In this document: positions 38,725 to 43,641 of the stretch, piece by piece
Layout: each line of letters begins with the position of its first letter
Position numbering within the stretch: the first letter of the stretch is position 1
Origin: Terriglobales bacterium
GTDB taxonomy: Bacteria > Acidobacteriota > Terriglobia > Terriglobales > Acidobacteriaceae
Assembly: GCA_025936825.1 (NCBI GenBank)
Contig: JAICSO010000001.1
Location: 124,001-188,000, forward strand
Reading direction: 5' to 3'
DNA: 64,000 nt
Translations under genes and position numbers: made by a program
The notes under the pieces: model-generated
The model's input: the letters and a program-made list of their open reading frames with translations, nothing else
What the model was told of the DNA's origin: nothing
Database searches by the model: none

Positions 38725-39714
38725 ATGCGTAATTCGACAGCCAAATTCGCGGAAACTGAAGTTGCCAGCCAGGGCGTCAAGCTGGGCGAGCGCAGCGTCT
38801 CGCTGATCGGGAACACGCCCTTGCTGCGCCTGGAGCGGGTTGCTCGCGAGTTCCCCAACGTGCAGCTGCTCGGCAAGGCGGAGTGGTATAACCCGGGCGG
38901 GTCGGTGAAGGACCGCGCTGCTTTCAACATAGTTTCTGAGGGACGGCGCAGCGGGAAATTCGCGGTAGGAAAGATTCTGCTGGATTCAACCAGCGGCAAC
39001 ACGGGCATTGCCTACGCCATGATCGGCGCGGCCGAAGGATTTCCGGTCACGCTATGCATGCCGGAAAATGTGTCTCCTGAGCGCAAGCGCATTCTGTTCG
39101 CCTACGGCGCGAACATTATTTATACGCCCGCCGACGAGGGATCTGACGGTGCGATCCGAGTGGCGCGCGAAATGTACGCGAAGGAGCCGGAAAAGTACTA
39201 TTACGCCGACCAGTACTCAAACGACGCGAATTGGAAGGCACATTACTACGGCACCGCCGAAGAGATCTGGCGGCAGACCGAAGGGCGAATCACGCATTTC
39301 GTTTCCATGATGGGCACCAGCGGGACGTTCATGGGGACTTCCCGACGTCTGAAAGAATTAAACCCAAAGGTGCGCTGCATCTCGTTGCAGCCGGACTCGC
39401 CGTTTCATGGGATCGAAGGCGCGAAGCACATGGCCAGCGCGATTGTTCCCAAGATTTACGACGAATCGCTCGCCGACGAAGATATCGGCATCTCGACGGA
39501 AGAGTCGTACGCAATGGCGATCCACGCTTCGCATGAGGAAGGCCTGCTGATCGGAATTTCGTCAGGGGCAGCGATCGCCGGGGGATTGCAGATTGCGCGG
39601 CGCATTCCGAAAGGTGAGGAAGCGGTGATTGTGTGCATTCTTCCCGACTCGGGCGACAAATATCTAAGCGAGAGGTTCTGGACGGAGACCGCAGAAAGGC
39701 CTGGGAGCTGCTAG
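38725..39714 (+). CDS. cysM: Cysteine synthase (CysM-like)
   Basis: A 329-residue PLP enzyme of the cysteine synthase/CBS family. The PLP Lys is in 'NPGGSVKDRAAFNIV', the phosphate and substrate loop in 'STSGNTGIAYAM', and 'GTSGTFMGTSRRLKE' and 'ISSGAAIAGGLQIA' are later family blocks. It lies close to a JAMM peptidase, a CysO-like carrier and a MoeZ-type activator, as in the mycobacterial CysM-CysO-Mec route, where O-phosphoserine reacts with carrier thiocarboxylate. That role is inferred from context; the sequence alone would also fit an O-acetylserine sulfhydrylase. Confidence 0.9.
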   Translation: MRNSTAKFAETEVASQGVKLGERSVSLIGNTPLLRLERVAREFPNVQLLGKAEWYNPGGSVKDRAAFNIVSEGRRSGKFAVGKILLDSTSGNTGIAYAMIGAAEGFPVTLCMPENVSPERKRILFAYGANIIYTPADEGSDGAIRVAREMYAKEPEKYYYADQYSNDANWKAHYYGTAEEIWRQTEGRITHFVSMMGTSGTFMGTSRRLKELNPKVRCISLQPDSPFHGIEGAKHMASAIVPKIYDESLADEDIGISTEESYAMAIHASHEEGLLIGISSGAAIAGGLQIARRIPKGEEAVIVCILPDSGDKYLSERFWTETAERPGSC

Positions 39715-39723
39715 GGTTGAGCA

Positions 39724-39826
39724 GAATTGAATCATTGAGTCATTGAGGGATTGAATCATTGAAAACCCTTGATGCACGCGGTGGTTTTGAATGATTCAAT
39801 GATCCGATGATTCAATGATTCAATTT
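39724..39826. repeat. Palindromic ATTGAATCATTG element
   Basis: AGAATTGAATCATTGAGTC (39723-39741) and GGATTGAATCATTG (39748-39761) with an inverted arm, TTTTGAATGATTCAATG (39785-39801) and ATGATTCAATGATTC (39807-39821). It fills the gap between cysM and the JAMM peptidase gene. Confidence 0.85.
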
Positions 39827-39831
39827 CAATC

Positions 39832-40266
39832 ATGCTAAGAATCGGTCAGTCTCACTACGACTCTCTTCGCCAGCACGGCGAGGAAACCTATCCACACGAG
39901 TGCTGCGGCGTGCTGCTAGGTCGTTTCGACGATGACGGGACACGCGTAGTTACGTCATTAGCGCGTGCGGGAAATACGCGCTCCGACTCCCCGCAAAATC
40001 GCTACAACATCGATCCCAAAGAATTGGTACGTATTCAGCGGGAAGGCCGCGAGCGCGAAGAGGACATCATCGGCTTTTACCACTCCCATCCAGATCATCC
40101 GGCGCAGTGGTCAAACACCGATCTCGCCGAGGCGCACTGGTTCGGCTGTTCCTACGTGATCACTAGCGTGGAAAAGGGAAAAGCCGTGTTGACCAACTCG
40201 TTCGAGTTAACCGGATTTGACGAGAACGACAAGAAGCTGGTGGATGAGAAGATCGAGATCGTGTGA
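39832..40266 (+). CDS. JAMM/MPN+ metallopeptidase (Mec-like)
   Basis: A 144-residue zinc isopeptidase/peptidase. The JAMM motif is complete: Glu23 in 'HECCG', His84 and His86 in 'FYHSHPDHPA', Ser94 and Asp97 in 'WSNTDLAE'. In mycobacteria Mec frees cysteine from CysO; in the Pseudomonas QbsD system a similar enzyme trims two residues from the carrier C-terminus. Here the carrier at 42048-42326 ends in GGRC, so both jobs are plausible. Followed after 5 bases by a hypothetical gene. Confidence 0.92.
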   Translation: MLRIGQSHYDSLRQHGEETYPHECCGVLLGRFDDDGTRVVTSLARAGNTRSDSPQNRYNIDPKELVRIQREGREREEDIIGFYHSHPDHPAQWSNTDLAEAHWFGCSYVITSVEKGKAVLTNSFELTGFDENDKKLVDEKIEIV

Positions 40267-40271
40267 TTGTG

Positions 40272-41923: not shown

Positions 41924-42047
41924 CGCCCAGAATCGATTTTGACCAAGGCAGTCGCAGGCAGGAGTGCCCCGCCCCACAGGGCATGTCGGACAAGAATGTC
42001 CGAACACAAGGCTGAATCCAGCAGCCTTCTTATGGCATCATTAATGC

Positions 42048-42326
42048 ATGCCAAAGGTCCATATTCCAACCCCGCTGCGGCAGTATGCCGGCAAGCAGCC
42101 TGCGGTTGAAGTACAGGGTTCCACCGTGGGAGAGGCCCTGAGCGGCCTGGTTTCCCAGCATCCCGAATTGCGCCGGCACCTTTACACCGACGAGGGCAAA
42201 CTCCGCGCCTTCGTGAATGTTTACCTCAACGACGAGGACGTCCGTTACCTGCAGAAGGACGCAACCGCGGTCCAAGCGAGTGATAACATTTCCATAGTGC
42301 CGTCCATTGCGGGCGGACGCTGTTGA
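42048..42326 (+). CDS. CysO/MoaD/ThiS-like sulfur carrier protein ending GGRC
   Basis: A 92-residue ubiquitin-fold sulfur carrier. Sequence resembles CysO: 'VHIPTPLRQYAGKQPAVEV' then 'FVNVYLNDEDVRYLQ' and the C-terminal 'NISIVPSIAGGRC'. Active carriers end in a free Gly-Gly for adenylation and thiocarboxylation; here Arg91 and Cys92 follow the pair, so the precursor must be trimmed, presumably by the JAMM peptidase at 39832. Its activator is probably the E1/rhodanese protein downstream. Confidence 0.92.
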   Translation: MPKVHIPTPLRQYAGKQPAVEVQGSTVGEALSGLVSQHPELRRHLYTDEGKLRAFVNVYLNDEDVRYLQKDATAVQASDNISIVPSIAGGRC

Positions 42327-42343
42327 CCGCAATTCCCCGTTCG

Positions 42344-42434
42344 CGATTTCAGATTGAAGATTTCAGATTGTAGATTTCTGCACCGACAAGAGCCTTTTCC
42401 AATCTCAAATCGGCAATCTTGAATCTAAAATCCG
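42344..42434. repeat. Inverted AGATTTCAGATTG element
   Basis: TTTCAGATTGAAGATTTCAG (42347-42366) and ATTGTAGATTTC face AATCTCAAATCGGC (42401-42414) and AATCTTGAATCTAAAATC (42415-42432). It fills the gap between the carrier and moeZ-type genes. Confidence 0.8.
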
Positions 42435-42474
42435 CATCTTTGAGTTCATTATTCTGAATTCGCAAATAAAATCC

Positions 42475-43641
42475 ATGGCTACCTTGACCGAAATCGCTCC
42501 CGTCTCGCTCAACAACGACGAAATTTTGCGCTATTCGCGCCACCTGATCATGCCCGAGGTGGGCATGGAGGGCCAGCTCAAGCTCAAGGCCGCTAAGGTG
42601 CTGTGCATTGGCGCGGGAGGGTTGGGATCACCGCTGGCGTTGTACCTCGGCGCAGCGGGTGTGGGCACGCTTGGCCTGGTGGACTTCGATGTCGTTGACT
42701 ATACCAATCTTCAGCGTCAGATCATCCATCGTACCGCCGATGTCGGCCACCCGAAGCTGGATTCTGCAGCCGAGAAGATCCAGGCGATGAATCCGTTTGT
42801 GAATATCAAGAAGTTCAACACACATTTATCGAGCGACAACGCGCTCGAAATTTTCAAAGAGTTCGACATCATCGCCGATGGCACCGACAATTTCCCGACG
42901 CGCTATCTGACCAACGACGCGTGCGTGATCAGCGGGAAGCCGAATGTTTATGCGTCGATTTTCCGCTTTGAAGGTCAGGCTAGTGTGTTCGGCATGCCGG
43001 ACGGCCCGTGCTACCGCTGCCTGTATCCCGAGCCGCCACCGCCCGGATTGGTTCCGTCCTGCGCCGAAGGCGGAGTGCTGGGAATTTTGCCCGGCCTGCT
43101 CGGCGTGATTCAGGCGACCGAAGTTATCAAGCTGATTTTGGGTTCAGGCGATCCGCTGATTGGTCGGCTTTTGCTGGTCGATGCGCTTGGGATGAAGTTC
43201 CGCGAACTCAAGCTGCGGAAAAATCCCGATTGCCCGGTTTGCGGAAAGAATCCTACGATCAAGAAGCTGATCGATTACCAGGAATTTTGCGGAATTCGCG
43301 GCGAGGAAGTGGAGGCCGAAGTGACGACATCCGAAATGCAAGTGGAAGAATTAAAGCAGCGGCTCGATCGCGGAGAAGACCTGTTTATTCTGGACGTTCG
43401 CGAGCCGCACGAATACCAGATCTGCAATATTGGCGGACACCTGATTCCGCTGGGCGATTTGCCGAAACGCGTGAACGAGCTCGACACGAGTAAAGAAATC
43501 GTGGCGCATTGCCGCTCTGGCGTGCGCAGCGCCAAGGCGGTGAACTTCCTGCGCCAGGCTGGATTCAAGAAAGTTCACAATCTGGCCGGCGGCATTCTGG
43601 CTTGGGCGGACCGGGTCGATCCCAGCATGCCGAAGTACTAA
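42475..43641 (+). CDS. MoeZ/MoeB-type E1-like adenylyltransferase with rhodanese domain
   Basis: A 388-residue two-domain sulfurtransferase. The ThiF/E1 domain has the ATP loop 'GAGGLGSPLALYL' (47-59), the adenylating Arg/Asp segment 'LQRQIIHRTADVG', the Cys196 of 'PSCAEGGVLG' and zinc Cys pairs (179/182 and 253/256). The C-terminal rhodanese domain has its active Cys346 in 'AHCRSGVRS'. It activates carriers such as CysO, MoaD or ThiS by adenylation and then transfers sulfur. Linked here to the CysO-like carrier 148 bases upstream. Confidence 0.94.
   Translation: MATLTEIAPVSLNNDEILRYSRHLIMPEVGMEGQLKLKAAKVLCIGAGGLGSPLALYLGAAGVGTLGLVDFDVVDYTNLQRQIIHRTADVGHPKLDSAAEKIQAMNPFVNIKKFNTHLSSDNALEIFKEFDIIADGTDNFPTRYLTNDACVISGKPNVYASIFRFEGQASVFGMPDGPCYRCLYPEPPPPGLVPSCAEGGVLGILPGLLGVIQATEVIKLILGSGDPLIGRLLLVDALGMKFRELKLRKNPDCPVCGKNPTIKKLIDYQEFCGIRGEEVEAEVTTSEMQVEELKQRLDRGEDLFILDVREPHEYQICNIGGHLIPLGDLPKRVNELDTSKEIVAHCRSGVRSAKAVNFLRQAGFKKVHNLAGGILAWADRVDPSMPKY

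Follow-up and report, generated by a model that had tools for sequence, protein, structure and literature searches.

The closest described counterpart of the locus considered here is the mycobacterial CysO/CysM/Mec+/MoeZ system, whose description (PMC3227635) includes the same four kinds of protein. In our case they are encoded within a window of 64,000 nucleotides (the whole stretch of DNA that was analysed), and the nearest relative of the window carrier in the PDB is M. tuberculosis CysO (3dwg; 5.1e-16, residues 4-90). The CysO chain in 3dwg, however, ends in a bare diglycine (GG), whereas the carriers described below are either capped by residues past GG or fused to the E1 enzyme, and the caps are often rich in cysteine.

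Capped carriers have precedents, among them the thioquinolobactin system of QbsD, in which the partner is named QbsE. The QbsD and PtmS2 systems, as described in PMC6006322, likewise feature one or two residues past GG, with the protease gene adjoining that of the carrier, and PtmS3 has a single C past GG; these systems serve different pathways, and the passages on QbsD and PtmS2 do not mention a cysteine-codon pattern. According to the same source a capped carrier needs a protease, and cleavage of capped or fused carriers is known for other systems (PMC6006322, PMC8832034). The Deinococcus MoaD-MoaE protein, cut by JAMM (PMC8832034), and MoaX (PMC4326299) are described as carrier fusions cut after GG; there the fusion partner of MoaD is MoaE, in contrast to E1 here, and the account of MoaX in PMC4326299 identifies no protease. 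A similar gene neighborhood, cluster 4c of Iyer et al. (2006; PMC1779556), combines ThiS/MoaD-like, E1-rhodanese, JAB and cysteine synthase components and counts an acidobacterium among its hosts; JAB cleavage of fused ThiS/MoaD was already suggested in that paper. Unlike in the carriers here, caps and cysteine codons do not figure in its passages on cluster 4c.

The window locus and its capped carrier

The earlier note had described a CysM-like enzyme, a JAMM peptidase, a CysO-like carrier and an E1-rhodanese as sitting together, and all four open reading frames are indeed found, all on the + strand (Table 1). Two genes on which that note was silent, the 145-aa ORF and the opposite-strand Band_7 gene, separate JAMM from the carrier; Pfam and NCBIfam profile searches with the 145-aa ORF returned zero matches.

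Table 1. Features of the window locus; positions are those of the whole window.
Feature	Position	Strand	Evidence or remark
CysM-like PLP enzyme (cysteine synthase family)	38725..39714	+	PF00291 1.5e-64; C-terminus ...RPGSC
JAMM/Prok-JAB metallopeptidase (proposed pro-carrier and Cys-releasing peptidase)	39832..40266	+	PF14464 1.4e-24
145-aa ORF	40263..40700	+	overlaps JAMM stop
Band_7 gene	40842-41696	opposite strand	between JAMM and carrier
CysO-like ubiquitin-fold sulfur carrier, 92 aa	42048..42326	+	PF02597 5.4e-14 (ThiS family)
Diglycine G89-G90, expected mature C-terminus	42312..42317	+	aligned with final two CysO residues
Cap Arg91 (CGC), Cys92 (TGT), stop TGA; proposed to be cut off by JAMM and to act as Cys-codon sensor	42318..42326	+	sequence and family statistics
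Spacer carrier-E1, 148 nt, proposed read-out site	42327..42474	+	folding z -3.7 (L005, same stretch)
E1-rhodanese (MoeZ/MoeB type), proposed regulated gene	42475..43641	+	PF00899 2.6e-81, PF00581 4.6e-17

The CysM-like protein scored 348 bits against the NCBIfam model TIGR01138 cysM, below its cut-off of 394, and its top PDB matches were O-acetylserine sulfhydrylases; cysE was above cut-off in 5 of 41 genomes, the window's genome included. In the JAMM protein, residues 84-97 (HSHPDHPAQWSNTD) form an intact JAMM motif. Against NCBIfam models, this protein reached 92 bits for desampylase (cut-off 130), and the carrier 63 bits for SAMP1 (cut-off 60). The carrier's ending in GGRC instead of GG, as previously claimed, is read directly at the 3' end of its gene: GGC GGA CGC TGT TGA gives ...PSIAGG-R-C-stop, and the alignment with CysO ends at GG, leaving R91-C92 over.

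Caps, fusions and the JAMM peptidase across the family

A total of 262 carrier matches, from the part of the listed relatives that was fetched, was considered, from which 39 were excluded (31 with E1 absent from the stretch, 7 with E1 more than 400 nt away and 1 with E1 on the other strand); the remaining 223 loci were merged into 206 distinct loci with linked E1. In 59 of these 206 the carrier is fused in frame to E1, a set that leaves out L238, L239, L243 and L251, which overlap E1 but are unfused; the other 147 carriers are free. A bare GG end was found in a single distinct free carrier and residues past GG in 146 of 147. Because such residues recur to this extent, beside the 59 fusions, a cap produced by a 3'-end sequencing error is rejected for the family; the window's own codons come from one assembly. 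Transitions between the fused and free states number at least 16 on the E1 tree. The letters of the cap differ among species: compared with RC in the window, the nearest relatives G103 (same genus), L215, L216 and L225 have KAD, SC, SAIESCETCKWVN and ASDW...VLV, the carriers of the latter three being 88-91% identical to that of the window, and only 2 of the 5 tails of the window and these relatives end in Cys (all among the best 80 of 584).

Capping extends to other diglycine proteins of the same order. For ThiS, 30 of 39 matches were fetched and 29 were readable, and 22 of these 29 are capped or run on, with 7 bare; for MoaD, 30 of 38 were fetched and 28 were readable, with 26 of the 28 capped or running on. 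We call the latter MoaD-like, since the cut-off of the curated MoaD model was reached in only 5 of 41 genomes. A second CysO-like family is capped in 17 of 19 cases. Capping is therefore not specific to this cluster, and the part of the earlier interpretation that would make it peculiar to cysteine synthesis is not supported.

The other part, trimming of the carrier by JAMM, fared better, and is well supported by the comparison presented here together with the precedent of other capped carriers. Of 150 genomes, 147 have JAMM, as do 135 of the 136 that bear the carrier (both among the matches listed), and 197 of 205 distinct JAMM proteins retain an intact motif. Its gene is clustered with that of the carrier in the window and many relatives, and lies elsewhere in the genome in some. 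The in-frame carrier-E1 fusions would likewise require a cut after GG. By analogy with mycobacterial Mec+, as described in PMC3227635, the window JAMM probably also frees cysteine from the loaded carrier.

Cysteine codons in the carrier tails

Cysteine makes up 17% of free-tail residues (187 of 1094) versus 3 of 13083 residues in the carrier bodies, and is absent from the linkers of the fused carrier-E1 proteins (0 of 1256 residues). Over all free tails it is encoded as TGT 153:TGC 34, against T 74:C 123 at the remaining NNY codons of these tails; order-level tails have TGT 140:TGC 27, against 81:885 in the CysM, JAMM and E1 genes of Cys-tail loci, and the excess is weaker, 26:13, in the later-added loci (L193 and above, some within the order). 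The hexamer TGTTGY occurs in the tails 69 times in frame and once out of frame. Cysteine lies within the final 4 residues in 61 of 113 carriers, 1 of 99 CysM, 8 of 109 JAMM and 0 of 118 E1 proteins, and in 52 of 1226 ORFs of at least 200 aa. In the 52 tails of at least 6 residues it is closer to the stop than in shuffled tails (0/2000 for mean position, 77/2000 for the last Cys). Such tails, TGT-coded and loaded with cysteine close to the stop, were overlooked in the earlier note, and simple precursor trimming does not account for them.

Neutral drift is one rival explanation: if JAMM trims any cap, the stop codon could wander without function, and the cysteine richness would have arisen by chance, through descent or the loss of stop codons. 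We regard this as possible but unlikely. The tails are hypervariable, sometimes running into repeat-like DNA, and 67 of 147 are Cys-free, as drift might leave them; it would be hard pressed, however, to produce their high overall cysteine content and a preference for TGT not shared by the remaining NNY codons there. Caps with Cys are also found in ThiS (3 of 22), unfused MoaD-like (5 of 14) and second-family (4 of 17) proteins, in line with a tolerance of any cap, yet in the family studied here the Cys codons are in frame and near the stop. The Cys-tail state, counted with the observed labels, has changed at least 27 times on the tree, again unlike a chance product of descent, as is the lack of cysteine in the fused linkers; the plain counts over loci, on the other side, are inflated by relatedness. 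Stop-codon loss as the source of cysteine was rejected because the loss of TGA (to TGG) would give Trp as well, and Trp is 1% of tail residues.

It seems improbable that the cysteine tail acts as protein, be it by binding metal, through redox chemistry, by holding a persulfide, or as a GG-Cys substrate mimic tuning JAMM. A GG-Cys end does resemble the CysO-Cys adduct, E1 carries a rhodanese domain, and 23 of 70 Cys-bearing tails start with Cys (a count omitting the duplicates L002 and L055 and the second-family carriers L004 and L047). Nevertheless, cysteine tracks the stop instead of GG, with insertions in between; codon choice is flipped to TGT; the fused forms do without Cys; and a terminal Cys is also seen in the JAMM of some loci.

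Poly-Cys reading frames are also found apart from the carrier. Separate poly-Cys leader ORFs lie 5' of cysD in 27 of 30 regions from six genera (shuffled mean 3.8, reverse strand 2), with TGT 130:TGC 60, and many of them begin with TTG or GTG. The 30 regions were fetched out of 50 listed matches and are largely from one genus, and the leader criterion was fixed after a first inspection of the same 30 loci. Upstream of CysM such leaders were found in 4 of 138 cases, without excess, and upstream of ThiS and MoaD in 2 of 27 and 2 of 28, respectively; at E1 genes without an adjacent carrier there were none (0 of 29). Two other leader candidates, one RCCVFFAIS-like and one RRCPSCRC, recur upstream of CysM. 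In the carrier tails, it is the family carrier gene itself that the Cys codons close, not a separate short leader ORF. As a family property, a series of Cys codons stands close to a stop that precedes a gene of the cysteine pathway; the window has one such codon.

The distance to E1 and the intervening RNA were considered as possible parts of a read-out. Cysteine lies within the final 5 residues in 70 of 109 carriers with a spacer of at least 35 nt versus 2 of 38 with a shorter one; in phylogenetically independent pairs, scored with labels counting L238, L239, L243 and L251 as fused, the association was non-significant (3.8 same way, 1.1 opposite, 13.2 equal; median p 0.375). Four Cys tails (L071, L090, L105 and L111) have no E1 close behind, and at two (L098 and L109) the distance to E1 is 379 and 731 nt. 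Spacers that follow Cys tails are rich in C and poor in G, a C-over-G bias that is a property of the group, also seen after cysD leaders (skew 0.28) and JAMM stops (0.112). Terminator-like hairpins were found in 16 of 60 Cys loci versus 0 of 25 others; in the single-Cys group the shuffled mean of the hairpin search was alike (-2.44 against -2.67). Small-group consensus folds, tail-to-E1-start complementarity and terminator-like hairpins revealed no RNA structure conserved across genera, and a conserved RNA switch was rejected, the four Rfam matches in 38300-43700 all being far under gathering scores.

That UGUUGU is an RNA element pairing with the E1 start region, with cysteine incidental, is very improbable: tails of part of one genus show complementarity with the E1 start across as many as 7 nt, the mean longest complement in 61 Cys-tail loci is 4.26 versus 3.65 for shuffled tails (0/200 reach it), the duplex energy beats shuffled tails (0/100) but not shuffled starts (9/100), and 29 Cys-free loci have zero such signal, yet the effect is small, the locus set includes close relatives, unthinned, TGTTGY keeps to the reading frame (69:1), and poly-Cys leaders with different sequences recur before cysD. 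Such pairing could be part of a sensor instead of a rival to it.

A possible cysteine gauge and its described counterparts

Considering the above, we lean toward a reading in which the capped carrier is opened by JAMM and the TGT codons of its tail near the stop serve as a cysteine gauge for the downstream gene. This reading starts from the caps, the fusions, the co-occurrence of JAMM, the excess of cysteine and TGT, the stop proximity and the poly-Cys leaders before cysD, as found in the genomes compared, and from these we infer cleavage, stalling and an effect on E1 as follows. The carrier would be translated as a capped precursor, which JAMM cuts past the diglycine; the freed diglycine would let the E1-rhodanese adenylate and thiocarboxylate the carrier, and JAMM probably also releases cysteine once CysM has loaded it. 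With one peptidase opening all diglycine carriers, the sequence past GG would be free to shrink, grow, gain repeats or fuse to E1, and in the CysO-like carrier this freedom might have been used to place rare TGT codons near the stop. When charged tRNA-Cys is scarce, the ribosome would stall near the 3' end of the carrier gene, which would prevent the C-rich spacer from shutting off the downstream gene, usually E1; more E1 would allow more carrier to be charged with sulfur, and JAMM would then discard the tail. Judging by sequence comparison, the tail would thus have a second function as a leader that makes E1 responsive to cysteine. In the window, one TGT codon would make up the whole sensor, which may be weak or vestigial.

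We would put at about even the chance of a broader proposition: that the carrier tail amounts to a leader peptide added to the end of a functional protein, sensing cysteine via TGT codons just ahead of the stop, setting E1 expression and tolerable only since JAMM removes it, and that this device, repeatedly gained or lost, is present both in Acidobacteriota and in contigs with Rubrobacter in their titles, alongside the separate poly-Cys leaders of sulfate assimilation. If so, a discarded protein tail would gauge the amino acid whose synthesis the protein assists, and a maturation protease would have left the end of its substrate free for another role that operates in translation only. The sensor reading predicts cysteine-responsive attenuation in Acidobacteriota, a phylum for which a 2010 paper (PMC2965389), in the part concerned, lists almost no predicted attenuator with an associated function; the cysD leaders and carrier tails would be the sites to test it. 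The capped and E1-fused carriers, for their part, offer natural substrates for probing recognition by JAMM peptidases.

Several described systems share parts of this scheme. Mycobacterial cys leader peptides are reported to have Cys-codon runs near the stop without a conserved terminator (PMC1262725), poly-Cys leaders precede mycobacterial cys operons (Canestrari et al., 2020, as cited in PMC9094748 and PMC13236596), and in Rhodobacterales one precedes cysS, with UGC dominant in the motif (PMC8632094). These, as described, likewise place Cys codons near a stop 5' of a cysteine gene; they are, however, separate short ORFs, whereas here TGT-coded cysteines end a working protein and, as proposed, are removable by a peptidase. 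In the account of sinR (PMC3862929), synonymous serine codons within a working gene likewise make it respond to an amino acid, with no separate leader involved, although there it is the level of the gene's own protein that changes, while here the effect would fall on the following gene. SecM, MifM, TnaC and CutF, as presented in PMC9973294, are likewise cases in which the end of an ORF governs the next gene via ribosome pausing; they pause via the nascent peptide, whereas here the signal would be charged tRNA-Cys.

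The cysteine cluster of the window

The CysM-like enzyme, JAMM peptidase, carrier and E1-rhodanese described in the earlier note lie where it had placed them, and the GGRC ending that it read for the carrier is encoded as such at the 3' end of the gene (GGC GGA CGC TGT TGA). Among solved structures, mycobacterial CysO is the closest relative of this carrier, and the alignment stops at the diglycine (GG), leaving Arg91-Cys92 unaligned.

Features of the cysteine cluster, positions within the window
Feature	Position	Strand
Related imperfect inverted repeat, before CysM	~38640-38720	
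CysM-like PLP enzyme	38725-39714	+
CysM C-terminus, ...RPGSC	39700-39714	
Prok-JAB/JAMM peptidase	39832-40266	+
145-aa ORF	40263-40700	
ThiS-family carrier	42048-42326	+
Related imperfect inverted repeat, in carrier-E1 spacer	~42345-42440	
E1 with rhodanese domain	42475-43641	+

CysM, JAMM, carrier and E1 are closely consecutive in many relatives; in the window an opposite-strand Band_7 gene and the 145-aa ORF separate JAMM from the carrier. This ORF overlaps the JAMM stop, had no match in Pfam or NCBIfam and, by tblastn over the fetched loci L001-L184, found only copies of the window's genome among the matches listed. The CysM C-terminal Cys, with codon TGC, is of a kind rare among relatives (1/99, a set to which the window's CysM does not belong). 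The inverted repeats, of the cagattg/caatctg type and recognized by eye, have the look of interspersed repeats. The folding stability of the carrier-E1 spacer is above that of shuffled sequence (z -3.7). The carrier scores above the NCBIfam threshold of SAMP1, an archaeal protein modifier (63 vs 60 bits), so a second role in protein modification is possible; the JAMM enzyme scores below the desampylase cut-off (92 vs 130 bits). Of 41 genomes, five, including the window's, have a canonical cysE above cut-off, so the CysM substrate could be either O-acetylserine or O-phosphoserine.

Residues after the diglycine and their probable removal

Among 150 genomes of the order Terriglobales, sampled from a larger group, the carrier was matched in 136 and JAMM in 147; JAMM was not matched in G093 and G126, where the carrier was not matched either, or in G023, a genome 73% complete. 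Since JAMM was matched in 12 of the 14 carrier-less genomes, its link to the carrier is not exclusive. The pooled loci gave 262 carrier hits, of which 39 were set aside, and 206 distinct loci with a linked E1, in which the carrier is free, with its own stop codon, in 147 and fused in frame to E1 in 59. Only one free carrier, L023, lacks residues after GG. The linkers of fused carriers have a median length of 20 residues; in a slightly earlier set of 60, 54 lack any ATG and six hold a start codon accompanied by a Shine-Dalgarno-like sequence. The E1 tree requires at least 16 switches between fused and free states. Phylum-wide, 71 genomes outside the order had a listed best match at E 2.2e-32 or better, and in 59 of them (tallied by hand) that match, among those listed, lies in a frame of at least 372 aa; 19 of 23 loci fetched from this set are E1-fused. 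In locus L158 (G048:C55) a single 570-aa frame joins JAMM to E1-rhodanese with no carrier between.

As a control, we read the C-termini of ThiS and MoaD-like proteins of the same order. Of 29 readable ThiS, seven end at GG and 22 extend past it by 1-11 residues; the 28 readable MoaD-like proteins comprise two bare, 13 with short caps, one with a 41-residue extension and 12 that run on for ~150-200 residues beyond GG and, by their MoaE-like motifs, read like MoaD-MoaE fusions (L326-L328, L331, L335, L336, L338, L343, L349, L350, L353 and L354, the last in the window's genome). A second CysO-like family is capped in 17 of 19 members read (L004 included). Cys occurs in 3 of 22 ThiS caps, 5 of 14 unfused MoaD-like caps and 4 of 17 second-family caps; cap Cys is thus not confined to the CysO-like carrier, in which it is far commoner.

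A peptidase cut after GG would be the simplest reading of both caps and fusions, with JAMM as the cluster's candidate. The cap is a genuine, widespread family trait, very probably removed by JAMM. Comparison among relatives supports the trimming suggested in the earlier note, but capping is not special to the cysteine cluster; a single peptidase opening every diglycine carrier would account for the caps. Capped carriers opened by a peptidase are of a known kind: published work describes capped carriers that depend on a protease (PMC6006322), JAMM cleavage of MoaD-MoaE (PMC8832034) and cleavage of MoaX after its GG (PMC4326299), and Iyer et al., 2006 (PMC1779556) list the same gene set, one acidobacterium included, and propose JAB cleavage of fused carriers.

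Cysteine codons at the ends of free carriers

Cys makes up 187 of the 1094 tail residues of the 147 free carriers, 3 of 13083 residues in carrier bodies and none of 1256 in fused linkers, which have neither stop nor spacer. At the order level, 70 of 113 tails contain Cys and 37 contain CC; the first Cys lies 0-24 residues after GG, and in 61 of the 70 the last Cys is at most three residues from the stop. In 52 tails of at least six residues, Cys is closer to the stop than in shuffled tails (0/2000 for mean Cys position, 77/2000 for last Cys). Cys is among the last four residues of 61/113 carriers, 8/109 JAMM, 1/99 CysM and 0/118 E1 proteins; for the 1226 ORFs of at least 200 aa in these loci the count is 52, with CC in the last eight residues of four. 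The order-level tails use TGT 140 times and TGC 27 times, the CysM, JAMM and E1 genes of Cys-tail loci 81 and 885 times, and among the remaining NNY codons in the tails of all free carriers 74 end in T and 123 in C. Of the TGTTGY occurrences in tails, 69 are in frame and one is not. Tails with Cys at the stop recur in distant loci titled Terriglobia, gp13 or Acidobacteria (RCICR, RCVCS, RCACS), whose JAMM is 36-39% identical to the window's, and on two contigs, one titled Rubrobacter and the other Rubrobacteraceae (SEGRC, VCR).

We propose that the Cys-codon tail senses cysteine in cis, as a variant of poly-Cys leader control in which rare TGT codons would gauge cysteine and set expression of the downstream gene, usually E1; as a reading of sequence it is well supported. 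C-G skew of the spacer is 0.22 after CC tails, 0.125 after single-Cys and -0.04 after Cys-less tails (p 1e-5), compared with 0.112 after JAMM stops, 0.02 after E1 stops and 0.28 after the cysD leaders described below. Such a C-rich, G-poor spacer would suit Rho-dependent read-out, though it is no proof of it.

Two variations concern placement. In L079, L085, L088, L102, L103 and L277 a short interspersed-repeat-like stretch (...GCTTCGCGC...) separates the Cys run from GG, and the run is still close to the stop. In L027, L053, L057, L059, L066, L068, L038 and L045 Cys is in the last four residues of JAMM, often as CGATGTTGA at the stop; six of these eight genes precede carriers with at most one tail Cys and two precede fused carriers, as if the codons had been relocated to the gene ahead of the carrier.

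Several observations weigh against the sensor. Cys tails accompany 70 of 109 spacers of at least 35 nt and 2 of 38 shorter ones, but the association fades in independent pairs (median p 0.375). No tail Cys is present in 67 of the 147 free carriers. Four Cys tails (L071, L090, L105, L111) have no E1 close behind; in L090 and L105 it follows on the same strand after 1.4 and 2.3 kb, and in L098 and L109 E1 is at 379 and 731 nt. A search for RNA structure conserved across genera found none, complementarity between tail and E1 start is in small excess (4.26 vs 3.65), and later-added loci (L193 and above) show a weaker TGT excess (26:13). Tail sequences are RC in the window and KAD, SC, SAIESCETCKWVN and ASDW...VLV in its nearest relatives, and the spacers of this group are barely alignable, so that the case for a sensor in the window consists of a single TGT codon and kinship.

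Poly-Cys leaders and known systems

Cys tails resemble attenuator leader peptides; if they act as such, separate poly-Cys leaders would be expected elsewhere in these bacteria. Such an ORF, for example MANFAQRACCCCRMLPCPCARCCR, lies ahead of cysD in 27 of the 30 loci fetched (L355-L384; six genera, one predominant), against 3.8 in shuffles (maximum 7) and 2 on the reverse strand, by a criterion (at most 60 codons, at least four Cys, one in the last five residues) fixed after a first look at the same 30 loci. Between their stops and the downstream cysD match lie 108-321 nt, and their Cys codons are TGT 130 times and TGC 60 times; some begin with TTG or GTG, and a few resemble chance hits. These leaders are probably cysteine attenuators of sulfate assimilation. 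The same test gave no excess upstream of CysM (4/138 vs 7.2 shuffled), E1 without adjacent carrier (0/29 vs 2.2), ThiS (2/27 vs 2.1) or MoaD-like genes (2/28 vs 1.9). Short Cys ORFs recur upstream of CysM, RCC[VI]FFAI-like or RRCPSCRC (L036, L040, L095, L079, L085, L088; and L083, L099). In G139 (L051) a CysO-like carrier with CCC in its tail lies directly upstream of a gene that reads as CysD by sequence.

Searches of the open-licence literature revealed neither Cys-rich carrier tails nor acidobacterial poly-Cys leaders; the nearest likeness to the tails is PtmS3, in which one C follows GG (PMC6006322). Mycobacterial cys operons are preceded by leaders whose Cys codons form runs close to the stop, and no conserved terminators accompany them (PMC1262725); relative to such known poly-Cys leader control, a sensor in the carrier's own tail would be new.
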